Source: Verrucomicrobiaceae bacterium
GTDB lineage: Bacteria > Verrucomicrobiota > Verrucomicrobiia > Verrucomicrobiales > Verrucomicrobiaceae
NCBI GenBank assembly: GCA_016795365.1
Contig: JAEUHN010000020.1
Location: forward strand, 1-64,000
DNA length: 64,000 nucleotides
Direction: 5' to 3'
This document shows positions 2,250 to 45,977 of this stretch, one piece after another. The notes beneath the pieces are model-generated. The model saw only the letters and a list, made by a program, of their open reading frames with translations. It was not told the DNA's origin and ran no database searches. Made by a program: the position numbers and the translations under genes. Position 1 is the first letter of the stretch. The number at the start of each line of letters is the position of its first letter.

Positions 2250-4592
2250 CTATTTTTTCCCTTTGGCAGCAGCTTGGGTGAACCAGTCATTGCCACCGAA
2301 AGGATTGCCCATGCCACCCCCTGGTGGTGTGCGACCACCACCGCTGCTGAAGCTGCGCTGACCACCGCCGCCGCCACCTTGTCCGGGAGGACCACTGGGC
2401 TTTTTCTTCTCGAAGTCAGGCTTCGACTTCATCGAGAGGGCGATGCGTTTGCGTGCGAGATCGACTTCCGTGACGGTCACCATCACCTTCTGCTGCACCT
2501 TCACGACCTCGCTGGCGTCCTTCACGAAGTTGTCGCTCAGCTGGCTCACATGCACGAGGCCGTCTTGATGCACACCGATGTCCACGAAGGCACCAAACGC
2601 CGCCACATTGGTGACGATGCCGGGCAGCTTCATGCCGACCTTCAAGTCCTCCACCTTCTCCACACCTTCCTGGAATTGGAAGACCTCGAACTGCTTGCGC
2701 GGGTCGCGGCCCGGCTTGTTGAGTTCGTTCATGATGTCCTGCAGCGTGGGCAGACCCACAGTCTCGCTGACATACTTCTTCAAGTCGATCTTCGCGCGCA
2801 GTTCGGGCTTGCTCAGCAGATCGTTCAAGGTGCAGCCCAGGTCCGCAGCCATCTTTTCCACCAGCGGGTAGCGCTCGGGATGCACCGCGCTGCGATCCAG
2901 CGGATGCTCGGCATCACGAATGCGCAGGAAGCCGGCAGCTTGCTCGAAGGCCTTGTCACCCAGGCGCGGAATCTTGAGCAGATCGCGGCGCGACTTGAAT
3001 GCGCCATGCTCGTCGCGATACGCTACGATGTTCGCGGCGTGCGTGCTGTTGAGACCGGACACGTAGCTGAGTAGTTGCTTGCTCGCCGTGTTGAGTTCCA
3101 CTCCCACGCCGTTCACGCAGCTCAGCACCGTGTCATCCAACGAGGCCTTCAATTTGTTCTGATCCACATCGTGCTGATACTGGCCCACACCAATCGCCTT
3201 GGGATCGACCTTCACCAGCTCAGCCAGCGGGTCCATGAGACGACGCGCGATGGAAACCGAACCACGCACAGTGACATCGTGATTGGGGAACTCTTCGCGA
3301 GCGACTTCGCTGGCGGAATACACCGAGGCACCGGCCTCGCTGACCATGATCACCGGGATCGCCTTGGGCAGACCGATCTTGTTGACGAAGGCTTCCGTCT
3401 CACGGCTCGCGGTGCCGTTGCCGATCGCGATGGCTTCGATCTGGTAGTGCTTCACCACGTTGGTGAGCAGTTCCTTTGCGTGCATCAATGTGTTGCCGCT
3501 GCCGAGCAGGTAGATCACGTCGTTGAAGAGTAGTTTCCCCTGCGCATCGAGCGCCACCACCTTGCATCCCGTGCGGAAGCCAGGGTCGATGCCCATCACG
3601 CGCTTCTGTCCGAGCGGTGCAGCGAGAAGCAGTTCGCGCAGGTTGTCGGCGAAGACCTTCACCGCATCGGCGTCGGCTTTCTTCTTCGACTCAAGGCGCA
3701 TCTCCGTCTCCATGCTGGGCGCGAGGAGGCGCTTGTAGCTATCGGTGGCCGCGAGGCGAATCTGTTCACCACAGGGCGTCGTCGCGCGCGTGGCCATGCC
3801 TTCTACCAAAGCCGTGCCGGCGACTTCCGGCGGCGTGACGCGCATCATGAGGAAACCCTCGGTTTCGCCACGACGAATCGCCAGCATTCGATGCGAGGGG
3901 ATGGTCTTGAGTGGCTCATTCCAGTCGAAGTAGTCGCGGAACTTCGCGGCCTCGGCGTCTTCTTCTTTGCCCATAAGCACCTTGCTCGAAACGGTGCCCT
4001 GCTCTTGGAACAGCTTGCGCAACGCCGCACGCACCTCGGCGTTGTCACTGATGCGTTCGGCGATGATATCGCGCGCTCCGGCGAGCGCTTCGTTCACATC
4101 CTTCACTTTGAGGTCATCCGTCTCCGCATCGGGCTTCACATACTTCTCGGCCTCGGCTTGCGGGTTCGCGGCACGGTCAGCTTGATTGGCTTCAATCCAG
4201 TCAGCCAGAGGCTCCAAGCCTTTGTCCTTCGCGATGGTCGCACGCGTGCGGCGCTTCGGACGATACGGCGCGAACAAGTCTTCCAGCACCGTCAGCGAGT
4301 CAGCCTTGGCGATCTTGTCTTTGAGCGCATCGGTCATGAGGTTGCGCTCTTCCAGCGACTTCACAATGCTGGAGCGTCGATCATCGACGGCTTGCATCTG
4401 CTCCATGCGATCACGCACGGCGGTGATCTTCACTTCATCCATCTCGCCAGTCTGTTCTTTGCGGTAACGGGCGATGAAAGGGACAGTCGAGCCTTCGCTG
4501 AAGAGATGGGCGACGGCTCCGACGTGAATGGCTTTGACTCCGAGTTCGCGCGCGATGCGCTCGACGTGGGCAACGTTGATTTTGAGTTCCAT
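2250..4592 (-). CDS. tex: Tex-family RNA-binding transcription accessory protein
   Basis: Full-length (780 aa) Tex/YhgF homologue. Order of domains: N-terminal helical Tex region; a YqgF/RNase H-like domain around residues 325-450 with VMGIDPGFRTGCKVVALD; helix-hairpin-helix repeats around 500-570 (SYVSGLNSTHAANIVAYR); and an S1 RNA-binding domain around 650-720 (GIVTNVAAFGAFVDIGVHQDG). The last 55 residues are a Gly/Pro/Ser-rich tail, typical of Bacteroidota and Verrucomicrobiota Tex. Tex proteins bind RNA and affect transcription and translation fidelity. The gene follows mutL on the same strand after 120 bp, so co-transcription is possible. It is convergent with nadA. Confidence 0.95.
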   Translation of the reverse strand: MELKINVAHVERIARELGVKAIHVGAVAHLFSEGSTVPFIARYRKEQTGEMDEVKITAVRDRMEQMQAVDDRRSSIVKSLEERNLMTDALKDKIAKADSLTVLEDLFAPYRPKRRTRATIAKDKGLEPLADWIEANQADRAANPQAEAEKYVKPDAETDDLKVKDVNEALAGARDIIAERISDNAEVRAALRKLFQEQGTVSSKVLMGKEEDAEAAKFRDYFDWNEPLKTIPSHRMLAIRRGETEGFLMMRVTPPEVAGTALVEGMATRATTPCGEQIRLAATDSYKRLLAPSMETEMRLESKKKADADAVKVFADNLRELLLAAPLGQKRVMGIDPGFRTGCKVVALDAQGKLLFNDVIYLLGSGNTLMHAKELLTNVVKHYQIEAIAIGNGTASRETEAFVNKIGLPKAIPVIMVSEAGASVYSASEVAREEFPNHDVTVRGSVSIARRLMDPLAELVKVDPKAIGVGQYQHDVDQNKLKASLDDTVLSCVNGVGVELNTASKQLLSYVSGLNSTHAANIVAYRDEHGAFKSRRDLLKIPRLGDKAFEQAAGFLRIRDAEHPLDRSAVHPERYPLVEKMAADLGCTLNDLLSKPELRAKIDLKKYVSETVGLPTLQDIMNELNKPGRDPRKQFEVFQFQEGVEKVEDLKVGMKLPGIVTNVAAFGAFVDIGVHQDGLVHVSQLSDNFVKDASEVVKVQQKVMVTVTEVDLARKRIALSMKSKPDFEKKKPSGPPGQGGGGGGQRSFSSGGGRTPPGGGMGNPFGGNDWFTQAAAKGKK

Positions 4593-12800: not shown

Positions 12801-13520
12801 TCAAGAACAGCGCTTCGCCAGCACGACACTCAAAACCACACCCGCGACACAACCAATGATCACAATCAATGGGAAGGCGGCGTTCGAGTTCTCAAATCCA
12901 TTATGAATCTCCATGCCGAACACGCTTGCCAAGGCGGTCAGCGGCAGGAACATCGCGGCGAGCAGGTTGATTCGATGCGCGGTCTTGGCCATCGACTGCG
13001 CGGACTGAGCCTGTGATTCCGCCTGCTTGGCCGCTGTGAAGTTGAGGCCGAACTGCGCATCCTGCATGAGCAGTTCCGCCGTTCGTTCAATCTCGGCAGC
13101 CTTGTCACGTAGGTTCAGCAAATCGCGGTCCGACTTCATCAAGTCGCGTGCCTGCTGCATGGCCCGATGCATTCCGCGAGCAGCCCGGAGCAGGGGAGTG
13201 AGGGATTCGAGCACCGCATGAAACTCGGCTGCTGAAGTCGCACTCGCCTCGCCCTCGTCCAAGGTCTGGAGACGCTCGTCATATTGCGCCAGCAAGTGCT
13301 GAAGACCCTCAAGGCCCGCATCGTCGTGAGTGCTCTTCCATTGGCCTGTCGGGTGACGCCAGAACAAGGCTGCCTTACGCTTGCGCTCGTTGGGCCCAGG
13401 CAATTCATGCAGCACAATCAAGAGGTGCCCTTCCTCCCGCATCGCTCGCTGCGGCCCGGCTTCCGCGCCGAGCCGGTCGCGCAGTTCGAGCGGGAGATTC
13501 CAGGAAGAGGGGAGGGACAT
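12801..13520 (-). CDS. CorA-like membrane protein
   Basis: 239 residues with the end-layout of CorA metal channels: a soluble N-terminal part, a long helical stretch (about 95-180), then two closely spaced C-terminal membrane helices (NLLAAMFLPLTALASVFG and AAFPLIVIIGCVAGVVLSVV). CorA carries the selectivity motif GMN between its helices; here the matching position reads GMEI, with Glu in place of Asn. The protein is also shorter than CorA (about 316 aa). It is probably a divergent family member, and ion specificity should not be assumed. It is the first gene of a pair with cardiolipin synthase. Confidence 0.7.
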   Translation of the reverse strand: MSLPSSWNLPLELRDRLGAEAGPQRAMREEGHLLIVLHELPGPNERKRKAALFWRHPTGQWKSTHDDAGLEGLQHLLAQYDERLQTLDEGEASATSAAEFHAVLESLTPLLRAARGMHRAMQQARDLMKSDRDLLNLRDKAAEIERTAELLMQDAQFGLNFTAAKQAESQAQSAQSMAKTAHRINLLAAMFLPLTALASVFGMEIHNGFENSNAAFPLIVIIGCVAGVVLSVVLAKRCS

Positions 13521-13524
13521 TGAG

Positions 13525-13617
13525 GAAAGGATGAATGATGAAGTGTGAAGGATGAACCAAGACAGCCTGAAGAGGACGAAGTTGTTTCATCCTTCATCAC
13601 TCAGACTTCATCCTTTC
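13525..13617. repeat. Imperfect inverted repeat of GGATGAA motifs
   Basis: Two ~33-bp arms (13525-13557 and 13585-13617) are imperfect reverse complements. Both start and end with GAAAGGATGAA / AAGGATGAA-type sequence, with a diverged middle. The unit sits in the 98 bp between the NagB-like gene and the CorA-like gene. It can fold as a long hairpin but has no T-run. It may be a dispersed intergenic repeat. Confidence 0.5.
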
Positions 13618-13618
13618 G

Positions 13619-14557
13619 TTAGTGCATCTCCACCGCCACCTCGCCGATGCCGCCGCGGTAGTAGTTGAACTGCACATTCGGGTGATCAGCGAGCAAGCTC
13701 ATGGGCACGGCGCTGTCGGCGATGCCTTTGGAAATCATGAGCGCGGTCAAACGCTGGCCGAGCGGGTTGTCGTGCGCGCCGGCGTGCCAGATGCTCACCT
13801 TGTCTGACATCCAGGTTTCCTTGGGGCCGACGGTGATCGCCATCTTCGGCACCATCGTGATGTTGCCGCCACCGCTCGTGCGGGCGTTCTGTGAGAGCGT
13901 GATCGGATGCAGTTCAACAATGCGCGTGCCCAGCTTGCGATACTCCGCAGGTGAAGGCGGCTCGCTCTTGTATTTGCCGGTGCGCTTGAGTGGATCGTTG
14001 AAGGCCCAGTGCTTGATGTCGCCCTGGCCACCCTGCATCACCGCGCAACGCACACCCGCGTTCCACGAAGCGACATACGGCTTCACATCGCCGCGCGGGA
14101 AGTGGAGGTTCGAGTCCGGCATGACGAGCTTCTTGTTAATGCGGTTGAAGCACAGTTCACGGTCTGCCTTCTCGAAGGACAGCGGATGCGTCACCGGCAC
14201 CTCGCGCTTCGTTTGATCGTCATACCATTCGTCCATGCCCCAGAAGTGCGCGGTCTTCAGATTGAGCCCGAGTTCATTCACCAAGCGTGCCACGAGCGGC
14301 AGTTGCTCGGTGGGACCGATGGGACCGCAGATGCCGACCGGATTGTCTGCGGTCGATTGCTTCCAGGCGTGGATGTATTCGAGTGCTTCGGCCAGGTAGA
14401 AATCCTCAAGCGTGTCATAGAACACGACCTTGAACCCTGGGCGCGAGAGCTTGAACAAGTCCTTCGGCGTCAGGCGCGCGGCTTCCTGGATGAGACTGTC
14501 GTCGAGCGTGGTGTAGTCCCACCAGTCGGGGGCGATGTGGCTGAGTTTGCGAGGCAT
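13619..14557 (-). CDS. NagB-like glucosamine-6-phosphate deaminase family protein
   Basis: 312 residues from ATG 14557 ([13 protein letters not shown]). The fold of glucosamine-6-phosphate deaminase / 6-phosphogluconolactonase is suggested by [14 protein letters not shown] (phosphate loop), [11 protein letters not shown] (equivalent to GLDEY), [14 protein letters not shown] (equivalent to GIGxDGHIAFNEP) and [12 protein letters not shown]. In the third motif the catalytic His is kept, but the aligned catalytic Asp and Glu become Ile and Asp. It is also longer than E. coli NagB (266 aa). So it is a sugar-phosphate-related protein of this superfamily, and deaminase activity is uncertain. Confidence 0.75.
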
Positions 14558-17826: not shown

Positions 17827-20775
17827 ATGAAACCGACTCTGCTTCTGCTCGCCCTGCTGCCCGGTGCTATCCTCGCTGCTGATCTGCCGCCGGACAAAGG
17901 CAATGAGCTTCCCGCAAGCGCTCAGCGTCCGGTGGTGGTGACGGGCAAGCCTTCGATTGATGTCCCCAAGGCGGACTTGCCCGAAGGCTACACCTTGAGC
18001 GTCGCCGCCGCCGCGCCGCTGGTGCTGCATCCAATCATGGGCTGCCTGGATGACAAGGGCCGTCTCTTCATCGGCGATGGCGTGGGCGTGAACTGGAACA
18101 AGGCGCAACTGGAAGCCAATCCACCGAACCGCGTGCTGATGCTGGAGGACACGGACAACGATGGTGCCTTCGACAAGAGCACCGTCTTCGCTGACAAGAT
18201 GACCTTCCCGCAAGGCGCGGCCTGGCTCGATGGCTCGCTTTATGTGTGCTCGCCTCCTGGGTTGTGGAAGCTCACTGACACCAACAACGATGGCGTGGCC
18301 GACCAGCGCGAGATGATCGTGAGCGGCTTCGAATACACGGGCAATGCCGCCGACGTGCATGGGCCCTTCCTTCACCCGAATGGTCGTCTCTACTGGTGCC
18401 ACGGTCGCAAGGGTCACAAGGCGACCGACCGCGATGGCAAGGTGGTGCATGAGGGACTCGCGTGCGGCATCTGGTCGTGCAAGCCCGATGGCCGCGATCT
18501 GCAATGGCACGCCCTGGGCTGCGGTGACAATCCGGTGGAGGTCGATTTCACTCCCGATGGCGACATCATCGGCGTGCAGAACCTCTACTACACCAACCCG
18601 CGCGGCGACACGCTGGTTCACTGGCTGTTCGGCGGTGTCTATGAACGCAGCGATCAGCTCAAGGCGATCGAAGGTCTGCCCCGCACGCTGGAGCACATGC
18701 CGGTGATGTATAACTTCGGCCACGTCGCAGTGAGCGGCTCGTGCTTTTGGAAGAGTTATGAAAGGAGCGCGGACACTCCTGTCCGCAACGAGGGGCCACA
18801 GGACAAGTCGAAGTCAGGAGAAATGCGAGCGGACAAGAGTGTCCGCGCTCCTGTTGGCGCTCCTTTGCAGTTCATGGTTACGCACTTCAACACGCAGCGC
18901 GTGGTGCGCATGGAACTGACGCCTGATGGCTCCACCTACAAGGCGACGGAGAACGAGTTCCTCAAGCTGCACAGCCCGGACATCCACTTCACCGATGTGA
19001 TGGAAGACCCGCGCGATGGCTCGCTGCTCGTCGTCGATACCGGCGGATGGTTTCGCATTGGCTGCCCGTCCAGTTTGATGGCGAAGCCGGACATCGCGGG
19101 GGCGATTTATCGGGTGAAGAAGGTTCACGGCTTGGCCAAGACGCCAGGCCGCGATAAACGCTCTTATCTCGGACACTCAATTCATTTGCACGAAGCACTG
19201 CAGAGCAAGGACCCAATTCTCCGACGTCGGGCCATTGAGATGGCTGTTGGCTCAGAAGGCGTCGTATCCGACACGAAGACCGAGTTTGAAGTTCTCGAGA
19301 TGCTCGGAGACAAGTCTCTAGACCCATCATTGGAACATGCGTTGATGAATGCAGCGCGTAGAAACCAGATGGTAGATGCCAAGGCCACAGCAGCGGCGGA
19401 AAAAGATTCCCTATTGCGTCGTCGGTTGCTTGGTGTGCTGGCCACGACCAACCCTGATGAGGCGCTGAATCTGGCGCTGGAGGACGTTCAGTCGCACAAT
19501 GCCAAGTCAAGCGCTGCTGCTCTCACCATCGTGCTGAAGCATCCCGATGCGGACGCCAGACTTGCGCCCATGCTGCTCAAGTCGATTCAGAGCAAGCGGT
19601 CGATCGACTGGCAAACAGCAGCCCTCACGGGCGCGCTGGAAACACTGCTCGCCAAGCCCGAGACCCAGAAGCTGGTGGCAGTCATGCTTGAGCATGAAAA
19701 CTACGCCTTTAAAAACATCGCGCTGAATGCCATCGGCAATCAGGCGGGCGCGGTCAGTAGTCCGCTGTGGCTGCCTGCGCTGGAGACCCTTGTCAGCCGT
19801 CTGCCCGCTTCGCAGTATTGGCTGGTGCTGGATGCGATCAAAAAAGTGAAGCACCCGGGCTTCGACGTGAAGCTCCAGGCGCTCGCCAACGACACCAAGC
19901 TTCCGCAACCTATCCGCCTCAAAGCCCTCGATGCGATGAGCACGCGCAAGATCACAGGCGAGACGTTCACCATGGTGCTCGATGTGCTGACCAAGCCGGA
20001 ATCTTCGGCGGCGGCGAAGATTCAGGCGGCGGACATGATGGCGCACTCAGGTCATACATCCGATGAAATGAAGCAACTGGCGAAGGCTTTCGCGACGGTG
20101 GGACCAATCGAATTGAAGTCGTTGCTTGCCTTGATCAAGCCGTGCAAAGAGGAGGACATTCTGCGCGCGATGGCGACTGAACTTGCCAGGAACCCGGCCT
20201 TGATCAGCCAGCAGGAAAGCATCTACCGCACGGCGCTCGCTGATAAGCCGACGGACATCTTCGAGAAGATCATCCATCCTGCGTATGCGAAGGCCTACGA
20301 TGCAATCGACGCGAAGAAGCGCACACTCGGCCCGCTTGCGGACAAGGTGATCGCCAGCGGTGACGCGAAGGCTGGCCAAGCTGTGTATGAGTTGGGCAAG
20401 GGCACCTGCATTGCCTGCCATCAGATCGGCGACAAGGGCCGCACCATCGGACCAAACCTCTCTCATATCGGCGGCATCCGCACGGAGCGCGACATCCTCG
20501 AAAGCATCCTCTTCCCCAGCAACACGCTGGCCCGCGACTACGAGGCGCACATCATTGAGACCAATGCTGGAGAGACGATCATGGGTGTGATAAAGAGCCA
20601 CACGGCCGAGGGTTTGCTCGTGGTCGATGTCGCTGGCCAGGAGAAGAACATCCCGCAGACACAGATGGTAAGCGACACGACACTCAACACGAGCCTGATG
20701 CCGATGGGCCTTGATGCGACGCTGCCTGAAGAGGACCTCGTTGATTTGGTGGCCTATCTTCGCTCACTCAAGTGA
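17827..20775 (+). CDS. PVC-type secreted dehydrogenase with HEAT repeats and cytochrome c
   Basis: 982 residues from ATG 17827, which starts a signal peptide (MKPTLLLLALLPGAILA). The frame runs 1 kb further upstream, but that part is antisense to the isomerase gene. Order: a six-bladed propeller-like dehydrogenase domain (about 50-450), a HEAT-like helical region (about 460-820), and a C-terminal cytochrome c domain. Heme is bound by CIACH (C861, C864, H865), with a distal Met candidate near MPMG. Such proteins are typical of Planctomycetota and Verrucomicrobiota and are thought to oxidise sugars outside the cytoplasm. Residues about 313-342 are encoded by an inserted palindromic repeat (see 18763) that keeps the frame open. 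Confidence 0.9.
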   Translation: MKPTLLLLALLPGAILAADLPPDKGNELPASAQRPVVVTGKPSIDVPKADLPEGYTLSVAAAAPLVLHPIMGCLDDKGRLFIGDGVGVNWNKAQLEANPPNRVLMLEDTDNDGAFDKSTVFADKMTFPQGAAWLDGSLYVCSPPGLWKLTDTNNDGVADQREMIVSGFEYTGNAADVHGPFLHPNGRLYWCHGRKGHKATDRDGKVVHEGLACGIWSCKPDGRDLQWHALGCGDNPVEVDFTPDGDIIGVQNLYYTNPRGDTLVHWLFGGVYERSDQLKAIEGLPRTLEHMPVMYNFGHVAVSGSCFWKSYERSADTPVRNEGPQDKSKSGEMRADKSVRAPVGAPLQFMVTHFNTQRVVRMELTPDGSTYKATENEFLKLHSPDIHFTDVMEDPRDGSLLVVDTGGWFRIGCPSSLMAKPDIAGAIYRVKKVHGLAKTPGRDKRSYLGHSIHLHEALQSKDPILRRRAIEMAVGSEGVVSDTKTEFEVLEMLGDKSLDPSLEHALMNAARRNQMVDAKATAAAEKDSLLRRRLLGVLATTNPDEALNLALEDVQSHNAKSSAAALTIVLKHPDADARLAPMLLKSIQSKRSIDWQTAALTGALETLLAKPETQKLVAVMLEHENYAFKNIALNAIGNQAGAVSSPLWLPALETLVSRLPASQYWLVLDAIKKVKHPGFDVKLQALANDTKLPQPIRLKALDAMSTRKITGETFTMVLDVLTKPESSAAAKIQAADMMAHSGHTSDEMKQLAKAFATVGPIELKSLLALIKPCKEEDILRAMATELARNPALISQQESIYRTALADKPTDIFEKIIHPAYAKAYDAIDAKKRTLGPLADKVIASGDAKAGQAVYELGKGTCIACHQIGDKGRTIGPNLSHIGGIRTERDILESILFPSNTLARDYEAHIIETNAGETIMGVIKSHTAEGLLVVDVAGQEKNIPQTQMVSDTTLNTSLMPMGLDATLPEEDLVDLVAYLRSLK
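18763..18852 (+). mobile_element. Palindromic insertion element inside a coding sequence, copy 1
   Basis: A 90-bp unit with 24-bp terminal inverted repeats at 18763-18786 and 18829-18852 that match at 23 of 24 positions. Each arm holds its own hairpin, GCGGACA-4 nt-TGTCCGC. The unit is inside the PVC cytochrome gene and is translated as RSADTPVRN...RADKSVRAP, adding exactly 30 codons with no stop. A second copy is at 44400-44514. The 42-bp interior shares only short stretches (AACGAG beside one arm, CGAAGTCAGG) with that copy. No transposase is present and no target duplication is evident. Confidence 0.8.
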
Positions 20776-20890: not shown

Positions 20891-21382
20891 TTGTGAGAAG
20901 TCTCGCGCCGAATCTTGGTTCTCCCGGTGCGAGCGAGGCGCAGTGAATGCCGTGGAGCAGGCCACTTGTCAAGCAGACATCACATTGCGTTGTATTTGTT
21001 CCGTGAGAATCGCGAATGGTTCTGGCTGCAATAGCTTTCCCCATCGTGCAGCGCCGAAGCTTTGTCTGCCCGATGTGGCCATAGTTTTCATGCGGCTGAG
21101 CTTATCGTGCCAGCAGCATCACAACGACAGCTACCATCAGTGCCGCCATGACGAGCAGCACAATAGCTACCTGCAAACGTGCGAGGAACGACGGACGATT
21201 AGAATGACGTCGCCGGGATGTTATGCGGGAGAAGTCGGGCGGCATACAATTTAAGGGGGAAGAACCAAGGCAATATCCCGCAGATTTGCCTTGAGTCCAT
21301 ACATGTATGGAAACGAATTCGTTGCGGCGACAGCTTGGCCAATGGTAACGAGGGGCGAGACTCGGCGACGATCATAAAACGC
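20891..21382. other. Long intergenic region between tRNA-Ala and ahcY
   Basis: Apart from the possible 47-residue membrane protein at 21102-21245, nothing was found here on either strand. The longer forward-strand frame (20943-21254) is rich in Cys, His and Arg with no recognisable fold and is judged a shadow. Confidence 0.5.
21102..21245 (-). CDS. Possible 47-residue single-pass membrane protein
   Basis: A short frame in an otherwise empty 560-bp gap. It starts at ATG 21245 and ends at TAA 21102. The first 25 residues are basic (RRHSNRPSF region) and the last 22 are a continuous hydrophobic helix (VAIVLLVMAALMVAVVVMLL) ending in Ala-Arg. This basic-in, helix-out layout is typical of small inner-membrane proteins. 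No Shine-Dalgarno sequence is seen, which is not decisive in this window. It could also be chance, so it is listed with moderate confidence and no function. Confidence 0.4.
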   Translation of the reverse strand: MPPDFSRITSRRRHSNRPSFLARLQVAIVLLVMAALMVAVVVMLLAR

Positions 21383-21416
21383 AAAACGCGGATGGCCTTT
21401 CGACCATCCGCGTTTT
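21383..21416 (-). terminator. Strong hairpin terminator of ahcY
   Basis: A 13-bp perfect stem (AAAACGCGGATGG, 21383-21395, paired with 21404-21416) with an 8-nt loop. Terminal A and T runs lie on both sides. It is 39 bp past the ahcY stop and would work on the minus strand, and possibly also on the plus strand. Confidence 0.85.
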
Positions 21417-21454
21417 GGTGATGATGATACAGTTGCGGCGCAACTGGGCTACTT

Positions 21455-44078: not shown

Positions 44079-45977
44079 TCACAACGACACACTCGTCACT
44101 CCACATCCCACTCGGCCAGCTTTGCGCGAACCTGTTCTGAATGTGCGTCGCCGATACGTTTCATAATCAGGAAAGCGTCGCGACACATCTGAATCGCCCG
44201 CCAAATAAAGAGCGTCGGCTTTTTGGGCGATACTTTGGTAATGCCGCGCATGAGCCAGCCGCAGGGCGGTGCAAGTTTCCTCGCCCAATCGTTCACGGGC
44301 ATACTCGGCGGCGAGGTCGTGCATCTCGTAGCGTCCGCCGGGAAGCCGCTCGAGCAGGCTGCGGCGGACGAAGAGGGAGAGGAGCGCAGCGGCGTCTAAA
44401 GGAGCGCGGACACTCTTGTCCGCCATCGAACGGCCCCTGACTTCGTCCTCGCGAGAGTCATCGGCTTGGCTGGGGGAGGAGACGCTCGTTGCGGACAAGA
44501 GTGTCCGCGCTCCTGTCGGCTCGCCCACCGCAGGGCTTTTCGCTGCCAACTCGAAAGCCCTCATGACCGCAGCCGCTGCTCCTTCCTCAAAGCAGTGTGT
44601 GAAGACTCCGAGCGCACGCCACGCATCGCGTTCCTCCGGCTTCAGCATGGCCTCGCTGAGGCGCAGGGTCTCACTGATGGTCACCTCGCCTGCATCCGCC
44701 GCCTCGGGATCGAGTGCGCCGATGCGACTCTGCTGCAAACGCTCGATGTAACCGGCCACATCCGGCTCTGGTCCATCCAACTGAAGATGACTGCCCGCGA
44801 GCTTCAATGCCAGCGGCAGTCCCGCGCACAGCCGTGCGAGTTCCTTTGCGTCTGCATCGAGCAAGCCCTCATGAAACTCACGTAGCAGTGCGATGGCTTC
44901 GGCTTCCTTCAGCTTCCCTACAATGTGCACGAGCCCCGCACTGCCCAAGACCAGCGGATGTCGCGAACTAACAATCAATCCGCAACCCGACGGCGGCAGC
45001 AGCGGCTTCACCTGCTCCGTGCCGGAAGCATTGTCCAACACCAGCAGAATGCGCCGCCCATGCAGCAGATCGCGATACGCAGCGCCCAGCGCCGCGAGAT
45101 CATCAGGCAACTCGCGCGCGCTGCCGGGCTTTAGAAGATCAATGATGCGGATCAACAACTCCTGCGCCGTCGGTGGAGTCGGTGAGGTGCCCCGGCACTC
45201 GATGAAGAGCTGTCCGTCCGGGAATCGCGGCGCGAGTTCATGCCCGAGCACGACTGACAACGCGGTCTTCCCAATGCCACCCATTCCCTTTAACCCGGTG
45301 ATCGCGGTGACCGCCAATGAGGCTTGCGTGAGCATCTTATCCAGATCGTCCCCACGACCGACGAAGCCATGGAGACGTGGGTCGGGAGGGAGTTGGTGGA
45401 GTCCGGATGGACGAGCATCATCAGGAGCTTCTTCATCCAGCACCGCCTTTGCCGCCAGAAGCTGCGCCACGCTGACTTCCGTGCCGACCATTTGCTTCAG
45501 GAGATCGCGGATGCACCAAGGCTCGATCATCGGTCCTTGTGGCGGCTGCTGGAACTTCTTGGGCACCGTCGGCACGGTGGAGAGCAGGAAGAAGAGAATG
45601 ATGCGATCGCAGCGCTGGTTCAGATGATGATCGATGGCGCGCTGGGCAGTGTCGGTATGCTTGTCGCCATCGCTGTTATTGGTGACCTGAATGCCTAGAC
45701 GCCTGTCTTCATCCAGCAGATCAATGCCTGGGGCGTTCGGGTGCGAGGGGTTGAGGTTGGTGAGCTTCCAGCCGAACAAGGCATTGAAGAAACGCCCCAG
45801 CACCGTTTCGATCACATGGCTGCCATCATTGAGACTCGCACCCGTGCGTGCTTTGAGCTTCTGCTCCAAGACGACCAGACGGTCGGAGAGATGCTTCGCA
45901 AGTTGTTCGCGTGGGAGGGAGCCGTTGGACATCGGGATGCGAGTCCCACCGTGTAGCGACACCTGATGGACTGACAA
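44079..45977 (-). pseudogene. SMEK/NB-ARC STAND ATPase, apparently truncated with a frameshifted end
   Basis: 632 codons. Residues about 20-110 resemble the SMEK domain found at the N-terminus of STAND NTPases (HVIETVLGRFFNALFGW, APGIDLLDEDRRLGIQVTN). An NB-ARC ATPase follows with Walker A GMGGIGKTAL, Walker B RILLVLDNA, and the GLPLALKLAGSHL motif, then a winged helix ending in YEMHDLAAEYARERLG. Such proteins sense triggers through C-terminal TPR arrays, often in defence. Here the array is missing: after ADALYLAG the frame leaves, while in the next frame AIQMCRDAFLIMKRIGDA...AKLAEWDVE, a typical last TPR, continues to a stop at 44096. A palindromic element adds residues about 488-526. ATG 45932 is an alternative start. 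Confidence 0.75.
44400..44514 (-). mobile_element. Palindromic insertion element inside a coding sequence, copy 2
   Basis: A 115-bp unit with 24-bp terminal inverted repeats (44400-44423 and 44491-44514) that are perfect reverse complements and match copy 1 at 18763 at 23 or 24 of 24 positions. The interior (67 bp) is longer than in copy 1. Shared AACGAG and CGAAGTCAGG stretches give the orientation, reversed relative to copy 1. On the gene strand it reads TGARTLLSAT...MADKSVRAP, without a stop. It lies in the loop between FELAAKSPAV and AALLSLFVRRSLLE of the STAND ATPase winged-helix region. Confidence 0.8.

Follow-up and report, generated by a model that had tools for sequence, protein, structure and literature searches.

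In-frame REPINs of a RAYT-associated family in genes of Verrucomicrobiaceae, exemplified by a PVC-type cytochrome gene

How can a gene harbor a near-perfect palindrome within its coding sequence and still encode one continuous protein? This question is raised by a gene for a PVC-type cytochrome, which lies in the first 64,000 nucleotides of contig JAEUHN010000020.1 from a Verrucomicrobiaceae bacterium (assembly GCA_016795365.1); this whole stretch is named the window in the following. REPs are by definition extragenic, and coding palindromes that keep the frame are mostly quoted as a peculiarity of Rickettsia. The relevant features of the window are:

17827..20775, plus strand: host gene of a PVC-type heme-binding CxxCH protein, 982 aa (profile matches TIGR02604, N-terminal; TIGR02603, C-terminal; plus DUF7133)
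18764..18851, no strand assigned: REPIN of 88 bp, two inverted REPs plus spacer, in-frame insert (evidence: inverted repeat, fold, empty site)
18764..18786, plus strand: left REP GGAGCGCGGACACTCCTGTCCGC, consisting of GGAG tag, C and a hairpin with 7-bp stem and 4-nt loop; read as (R)SADTPVR
18787..18828, plus strand: spacer between the REPs, with the motif GTCAGGAG that is common to the spacers of the copies L043, L056, and L068
18829..18851, minus strand: right REP, inverted; its in-gene translation is ADKSVRAP
44401..44513, no strand assigned: another REPIN of this family (113 bp) with fully (100%) complementary arms, likewise in frame within a gene
44079..45932, minus strand: gene that contains this second REPIN, coding for an SMEK plus NB-ARC (STAND-type) protein (Pfam)

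The inverted-repeat arms (18763-18786 and 18829-18852) comprise 24 nt each, are 96% complementary and enclose a spacer of 42 nt; relative to the REPIN at 18764-18851, these boundaries contain one additional complementary A/T pair. The REP itself is a 23-nt unit, GGAGCGCGGACACTCYTGTCCGC, in which the GGAG tag and one C are followed by a hairpin (7-bp stem, 4-nt loop). The initial annotation had described near-perfect arms of 24 bp, each of them a hairpin with a 7-bp stem and devoid of stop codons in six frames; the degree of complementarity, the fold of the 23-nt arm and its six-frame translation (zero stops) agree with this description. The fold of the whole REPIN has a z-value of -6.6, and the REP core pattern gave 4 matches in the window versus 0.10 expected in shuffled sequence. 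Two other inverted repeats were seen in the window. One of them (21371-21428) is located just 3' of an adenosylhomocysteinase-like gene and is probably a terminator; the other one (13511-13631) is long, imperfect and intergenic (50-nt arms, 72%), and is unrelated to REPs.

The ortholog of the cytochrome gene in G001, a genome of the same genus, has an empty site. It is shorter by 93 nt (31 codons) and the flanks are identical in 93-95% of the nucleotides; G001 reads ...FWKSY-GSAPLQF..., the window gene ...FWKSYE[RSADTPVRN...RADKSVRAPVG]APLQF. Because the empty site is exactly 93 nt shorter at this level of flanking identity, the extra sequence is an insertion and not a native loop. The palindrome proposed initially is real and in frame within the 982-aa gene, only its size has to be corrected from 90 nt to 93 nt. 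Relative to this nearest relative, the insert consists of the 88-nt REPIN and 5 additional nt, which a clean duplication does not account for; at this site, the sole one with a clean empty counterpart, there is no clear target-site duplication. Homologs carrying the same residues would have pointed to a native loop; besides the empty G001 ortholog, the window's REPIN pair is absent from every ortholog of the alignment, and the length of the loop varies among them. In an AlphaFold model, the REPIN-encoded residues 313-342 form a low-confidence loop between beta strands: residues 313-345 have pLDDT values below 50 and no secondary structure, and are flanked by two strands. As the mean pLDDT of the model is 68.9 and the alignment contained 18 sequences, we regard it as supportive only. 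The insertion added 31 residues to this probably disordered loop.

The same loop contains REP-derived peptides in other genera, namely two SADTPVR in G029, SDAGTPAR in G030, and SADTPVR in G004 and G019. In public genomes, a REP core is present in 4 of the 33 PVC-cytochrome loops that were readable; the named relatives are Verrucomicrobiaceae, many of them labelled Prosthecobacter. We also observed that an NREPRTEN/NREQRTEN-like peptide recurs in the hypervariable loop of PVC proteins (L084, L085, L086, L087, L278, L306, L307), which is possibly yet another coding repeat.

The second REPIN of the window folds with z = -7.8. Its insert (GARTLLSA...ADKSVRAP) sits downstream of the NB-ARC domain; the homologous gene of G011 lacks an insert, and that of G010 has a REPIN at a different place. 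In the 6.74-Mb genome (G000), a search allowing up to 2 mismatches gave 68 matches of the REP core and a single one for the reversed control. This count rules out a two-copy local repeat: the element is not confined to this site and position 44400, but belongs to a dispersed family, as had been supposed. As is characteristic of REPINs, inverted REP pairs with a spacer form one hairpin and are over-represented in the genome, and, as described below, the same REP flanks a RAYT gene. A second stem variant (GGGCA..TGCCC) often pairs with the first one. Short REPINs of G000 span 84-113 nt; long ones (165-187 nt) number nine, and none of them is in a gene. Left flanks are A-rich and right flanks often T-rich, similarly for in-gene and intergenic copies.

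Ten Y1_Tnp matches were found in G000. One of these ORFs, the RAYT at L062:2256-2915, is directly placed between two REPINs of the GGAG family (2026-2205 and 2864-3045), and the REP encodes KERGHSCPP near its C-terminus. The protein matches PF01797 (Y1_Tnp) above the cut-off; NF047646 (REP-associated tyrosine transposase) is its best NCBIfam match with 60.8 bits, which is below the cut-off of 80. It has the Y1/HUH signature of HxH and tyrosine: in the RAYT alignment, H121 and H123 are invariant, and Y165, which occurs in 27 of 30 sequences, is the presumed catalytic tyrosine. For relatives drawn from 57 genomes, we scored REP cores within 1.5 kb. They adjoin 11 of the 13 RAYT orthologs that are at least 51% identical and none of the 17 RAYTs below 48% identity. 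G001 has kept an ortholog (L210, 59%) and possesses just one REP core, which is not next to the RAYT; the inverted repeats around this RAYT revealed no REP of another type. The REP population of G001 seems to have been lost or replaced. G030, which represents a second genus, has a further REP subfamily (loci L231-L270) that shares the hairpin but is tagged GTGA; it surrounds a RAYT of its own (L254). There, the GTGA tag doubles as the TGA stop of the RAYT gene.

Of 47 elements in G000, 15 are located in genes, which correspond to 14 sites in 13 predicted genes (two chance matches in L074 with 4-5 mismatches were excluded); the respective number for G030 is 24 of 47. According to Pfam, the G000 hosts comprise PVC cytochromes (L051 twice, L052, L056, L064, and the window gene), a PSD1/PSCyt protein (L043), an N6/N4 DNA methylase, an MmeI-type enzyme, a Cas4-Cas1 fusion, two Ser/Thr kinases, a GH5-CBM protein, and the NB-ARC protein. 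ClpB, RecD2, PSD1, and PVC cytochromes are among the hosts in G030. This in-frame occupancy of many unrelated genes in two genera bears out the initial comparison with Rickettsia palindromic elements (RPEs); the host proteins presumably tolerate their inserts. In-gene copies are located in linkers whose length varies among relatives. For L043, L051b, and L068, homologous sites without a REPIN exist; in the linkers of L051a, L056, and L064, G030 has REP or REPIN peptides of its own. A clean boundary could be drawn at the window site only, because at the other sites the differences between homologous linkers often extend past the insert.

Three of these cases deserve separate mention. The Cas4-Cas1 fusion (L057:2044-4215, C23 of G000) contains a single REP in the linker between Cas4 and Cas1, read as GARTLLSA. 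The ClpB and RecD2 genes of G030 (L263:1408-4008 and L237:1597-3837) contain in-frame REP or REPIN peptides (SEAGTPARSEDAGKSVRNT; SDAGTPAR). In the G011 homolog of the L068 host (L180), the site of the REPIN is taken by another coding palindrome (GTDFQSVP...TDRLQACPT, DNA AGTGGAACAGACTTCCAGTCTGTTCC...), apparently a GTGG-tagged dimer of REPs from another family.

Reading frames were analyzed by counting hairpin cores. The gene caller was a hexamer model of our own making; it accepts only open frames and is thus biased against disruptive copies. Uninterrupted host genes are therefore to some extent a product of the method, but this does not apply to the choice among open frames. Forward arms in genes use the A(D/G)T(P/L)(V/A)R frame in 11 of 14 cases in G000 and 20 of 23 in G030, and reverse arms the A(D/G)(K/R)S(V/A)R frame in 11 of 12 and 12 of 15 cases, respectively. 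The pooled value of 31 out of 37 forward arms corresponds to p = 4e-10 against an expectation of 1/3 and to p = 2e-5 against 1/2, assuming independent copies, which related copies are not fully; the latter expectation is fairer for the GTGA type, because its third frame has a stop. The favored frames are hydrophilic, with a GRAVY of about -1 in the case of forward arms. The second frame, ARTLLSA/ALLPA, to which most exceptions belong, is hydrophobic (+0.6 to +1.4), and the third carries Cys. This third frame (ERGHSCPP) was used by none of the 37 forward arms in genes and by one case in G010 (L312); it is rare, not forbidden. Moreover, 19 of 25 short pairs in genes have a core spacing divisible by 3, compared with 6 of 17 outside genes (Fisher p = 0.01).

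The share of elements in genes is below the coding share, with 27% vs 81% in G000 and 51% vs 83% in G030, if each long REPIN is counted as two elements. We asked Pfam whether intergenic copies hide gene disruptions: on the flanks of nine same-strand intergenic copies, no split genes were visible and this idea thus gained no support. At seven sites the flanks belong to unrelated families, at two (L063, L265) only one side gave a match. The low in-gene share and the lack of visible split genes at these sites fit with a removal of harmful insertions.

The explanation that we consider very probable is a REPIN mobilized by a RAYT, whose insertions were filtered by selection so that in-frame copies in tolerant loops remain. 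The REPIN would be a non-autonomous miniature element moved by the cognate RAYT of the genome, a REP-associated tyrosine transposase of the Y1/HUH type, which may recognize the single-stranded tag plus hairpin and then move or copy the REPIN. Because the GGAG-type REP has no stops in any frame, an insert whose length is a multiple of three would keep the host gene open. Selection would purge insertions that break genes or hit structured parts, leaving survivors in variable linkers and loops, and would also favor the frame in which both arms are hydrophilic, (R/G)SADTPVR ... ADKSVRAP. The data demonstrate the anatomy, the dispersal, the RAYT association, the empty site, the in-frame occupancy, and the frame bias; we infer that the RAYT has moved the REPIN, that the host protein is made and functional, and that the frame bias results from selection and not from target choice. 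Against this explanation stand the NF047646 score below the cut-off, the GGAG tag in the place of GTAG/GTGG, the 5 additional nt at the empty site, and the single REP of G001 despite its RAYT ortholog.

Other explanations were weighed against the RAYT-mobilized REPIN. That the insert is a native loop of the PVC family, palindromic by chance, is hardly credible. The varying loop length of the orthologs would suit it, but G001 lacks exactly the 31 codons, none of the aligned orthologs has the pair, and the 23-mer has tens of further copies across the genome; empty site and dispersed copies rule it out. Instead of RAYT transposition, the spread of copies might also reflect recombination or gene conversion among REPs already present, as the local arrays near contig ends (L059, L045, L066) could indicate. 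We consider this very unlikely, since the window insertion lies at an otherwise intact gene site with no REP nearby and since the association of REPs and RAYTs tracks RAYT orthology.

With respect to the frame bias, the RAYT itself may prefer targets linked to codon position and generate one frame and orientation without selection at the protein level. A tetranucleotide guide picks the sites of HUH transposases of the IS200/IS605 group (PMC8266576), and in-gene and intergenic copies have like flanks. However, both arms reach the same hydrophilic frame across spacers of differing length, the exceptions are mainly in the ARTLLSA/ALLPA frame, and the sites are in variable linkers, so that this mechanism is unlikely as the full cause; insertion-site preference could contribute a part of the bias. 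Adaptive exaptation, i.e. a retention of REP-derived linkers for a benefit beyond mere tolerance, appears quite unlikely: the re-use of the same linkers across genera (the window loop in G029, G030, G004, and G019; L051a, L056, and L064 in G030), the strong frame bias, and conserved hosts like ClpB and RecD2 are in its favor, but the inserts are lineage-specific and variable in length, and an in-gene share below the coding share is expected of tolerated insertions.

Compared with known systems, the family resembles the REPINs/BIMEs with RAYT of Pseudomonas, Escherichia, and Stenotrophomonas, which are dispersed inverted pairs of tagged REP hairpins plus spacer and flank a family-specific Y1 transposase gene. 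In contrast to their GTAG or GTGG, also the hallmark of the GTAG superfamily, the tag at the hairpin foot is GGAG in G000 and GGAG or GTGA in G030. Furthermore, between a third and a half of the copies lie in genes. For the most abundant 16-mers of P. fluorescens SBW25, gene overlaps are much scarcer, with only 14 among 1,067 occurrences (PMC3116915). Intragenic REPs are also described from the same phylum: according to a 2013 paper (PMC3733652), REP singles and dimers inside ORFs encode 20-30 aa, intragenic GTAG dimers are most numerous in O. terrae (Verrucomicrobia), dimer partners of some families are just 1-2 bp apart there, and flexible linkers or loops were proposed as the seat of intragenic REPs. 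The parts of its main text consulted here mention neither a frame bias nor a recurrent use of linkers for O. terrae. RPEs, the classic in-frame coding palindromes with tolerated peptides in unrelated genes (PMC10969869), are alike in behavior, and the analogy holds at this level; their host is an intracellular alphaproteobacterium, and RPE-4 and RPE-6 are listed among CGTC REPs without an associated transposase gene (PMC3733652, Table 1). MITEs are likewise short, non-autonomous and bordered by terminal inverted repeats; here, however, each end is a tagged hairpin belonging to a Y1/HUH system, and the one clean empty site lacks a clear target-site duplication.

The initial suggestion of a new element type is not supported, given the REPIN anatomy, the cognate RAYT, and the in-ORF REP dimers in PMC3733652. 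Intragenic REP insertion is known in kind; new are the GGAG/GTGA tags, the frame bias, and the recurrent linkers, and the high coding share also sets this family apart as a variant of REPIN plus RAYT. The combination of these tags with a high coding share, frame bias and cross-genus re-use of linkers was not found in the main texts of openly accessible papers.

A 2024 review deemed coding palindromes outside Rickettsia conceivable (PMC10969869). The family offers such a system: its transposase can be identified, a relative shows the empty site, and the copies in two genera are numerous enough for biases of frame and position to be quantified. This makes it possible to test, by statistics and a mobility assay, whether mobile hairpins feed new peptides into proteins. 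Where the peptides SADTPVR, ADKSVRAP, SDAGTPAR, and AGKSARIT occur in proteins of Verrucomicrobiaceae, they should be interpreted as REP insertions and not as conserved motifs. Tentatively, and as a possibility we would not yet bet on, repeated protein-level selection may have shaped the RAYT-REP system of Verrucomicrobiaceae into a portable hydrophilic linker module: GGAG and GTGA subfamilies would use one frame and, in different genera, end up in corresponding inter-domain linkers of large cytochromes, kinases, and further proteins, and the mobile element would thus be a recurrent source of new protein loops.
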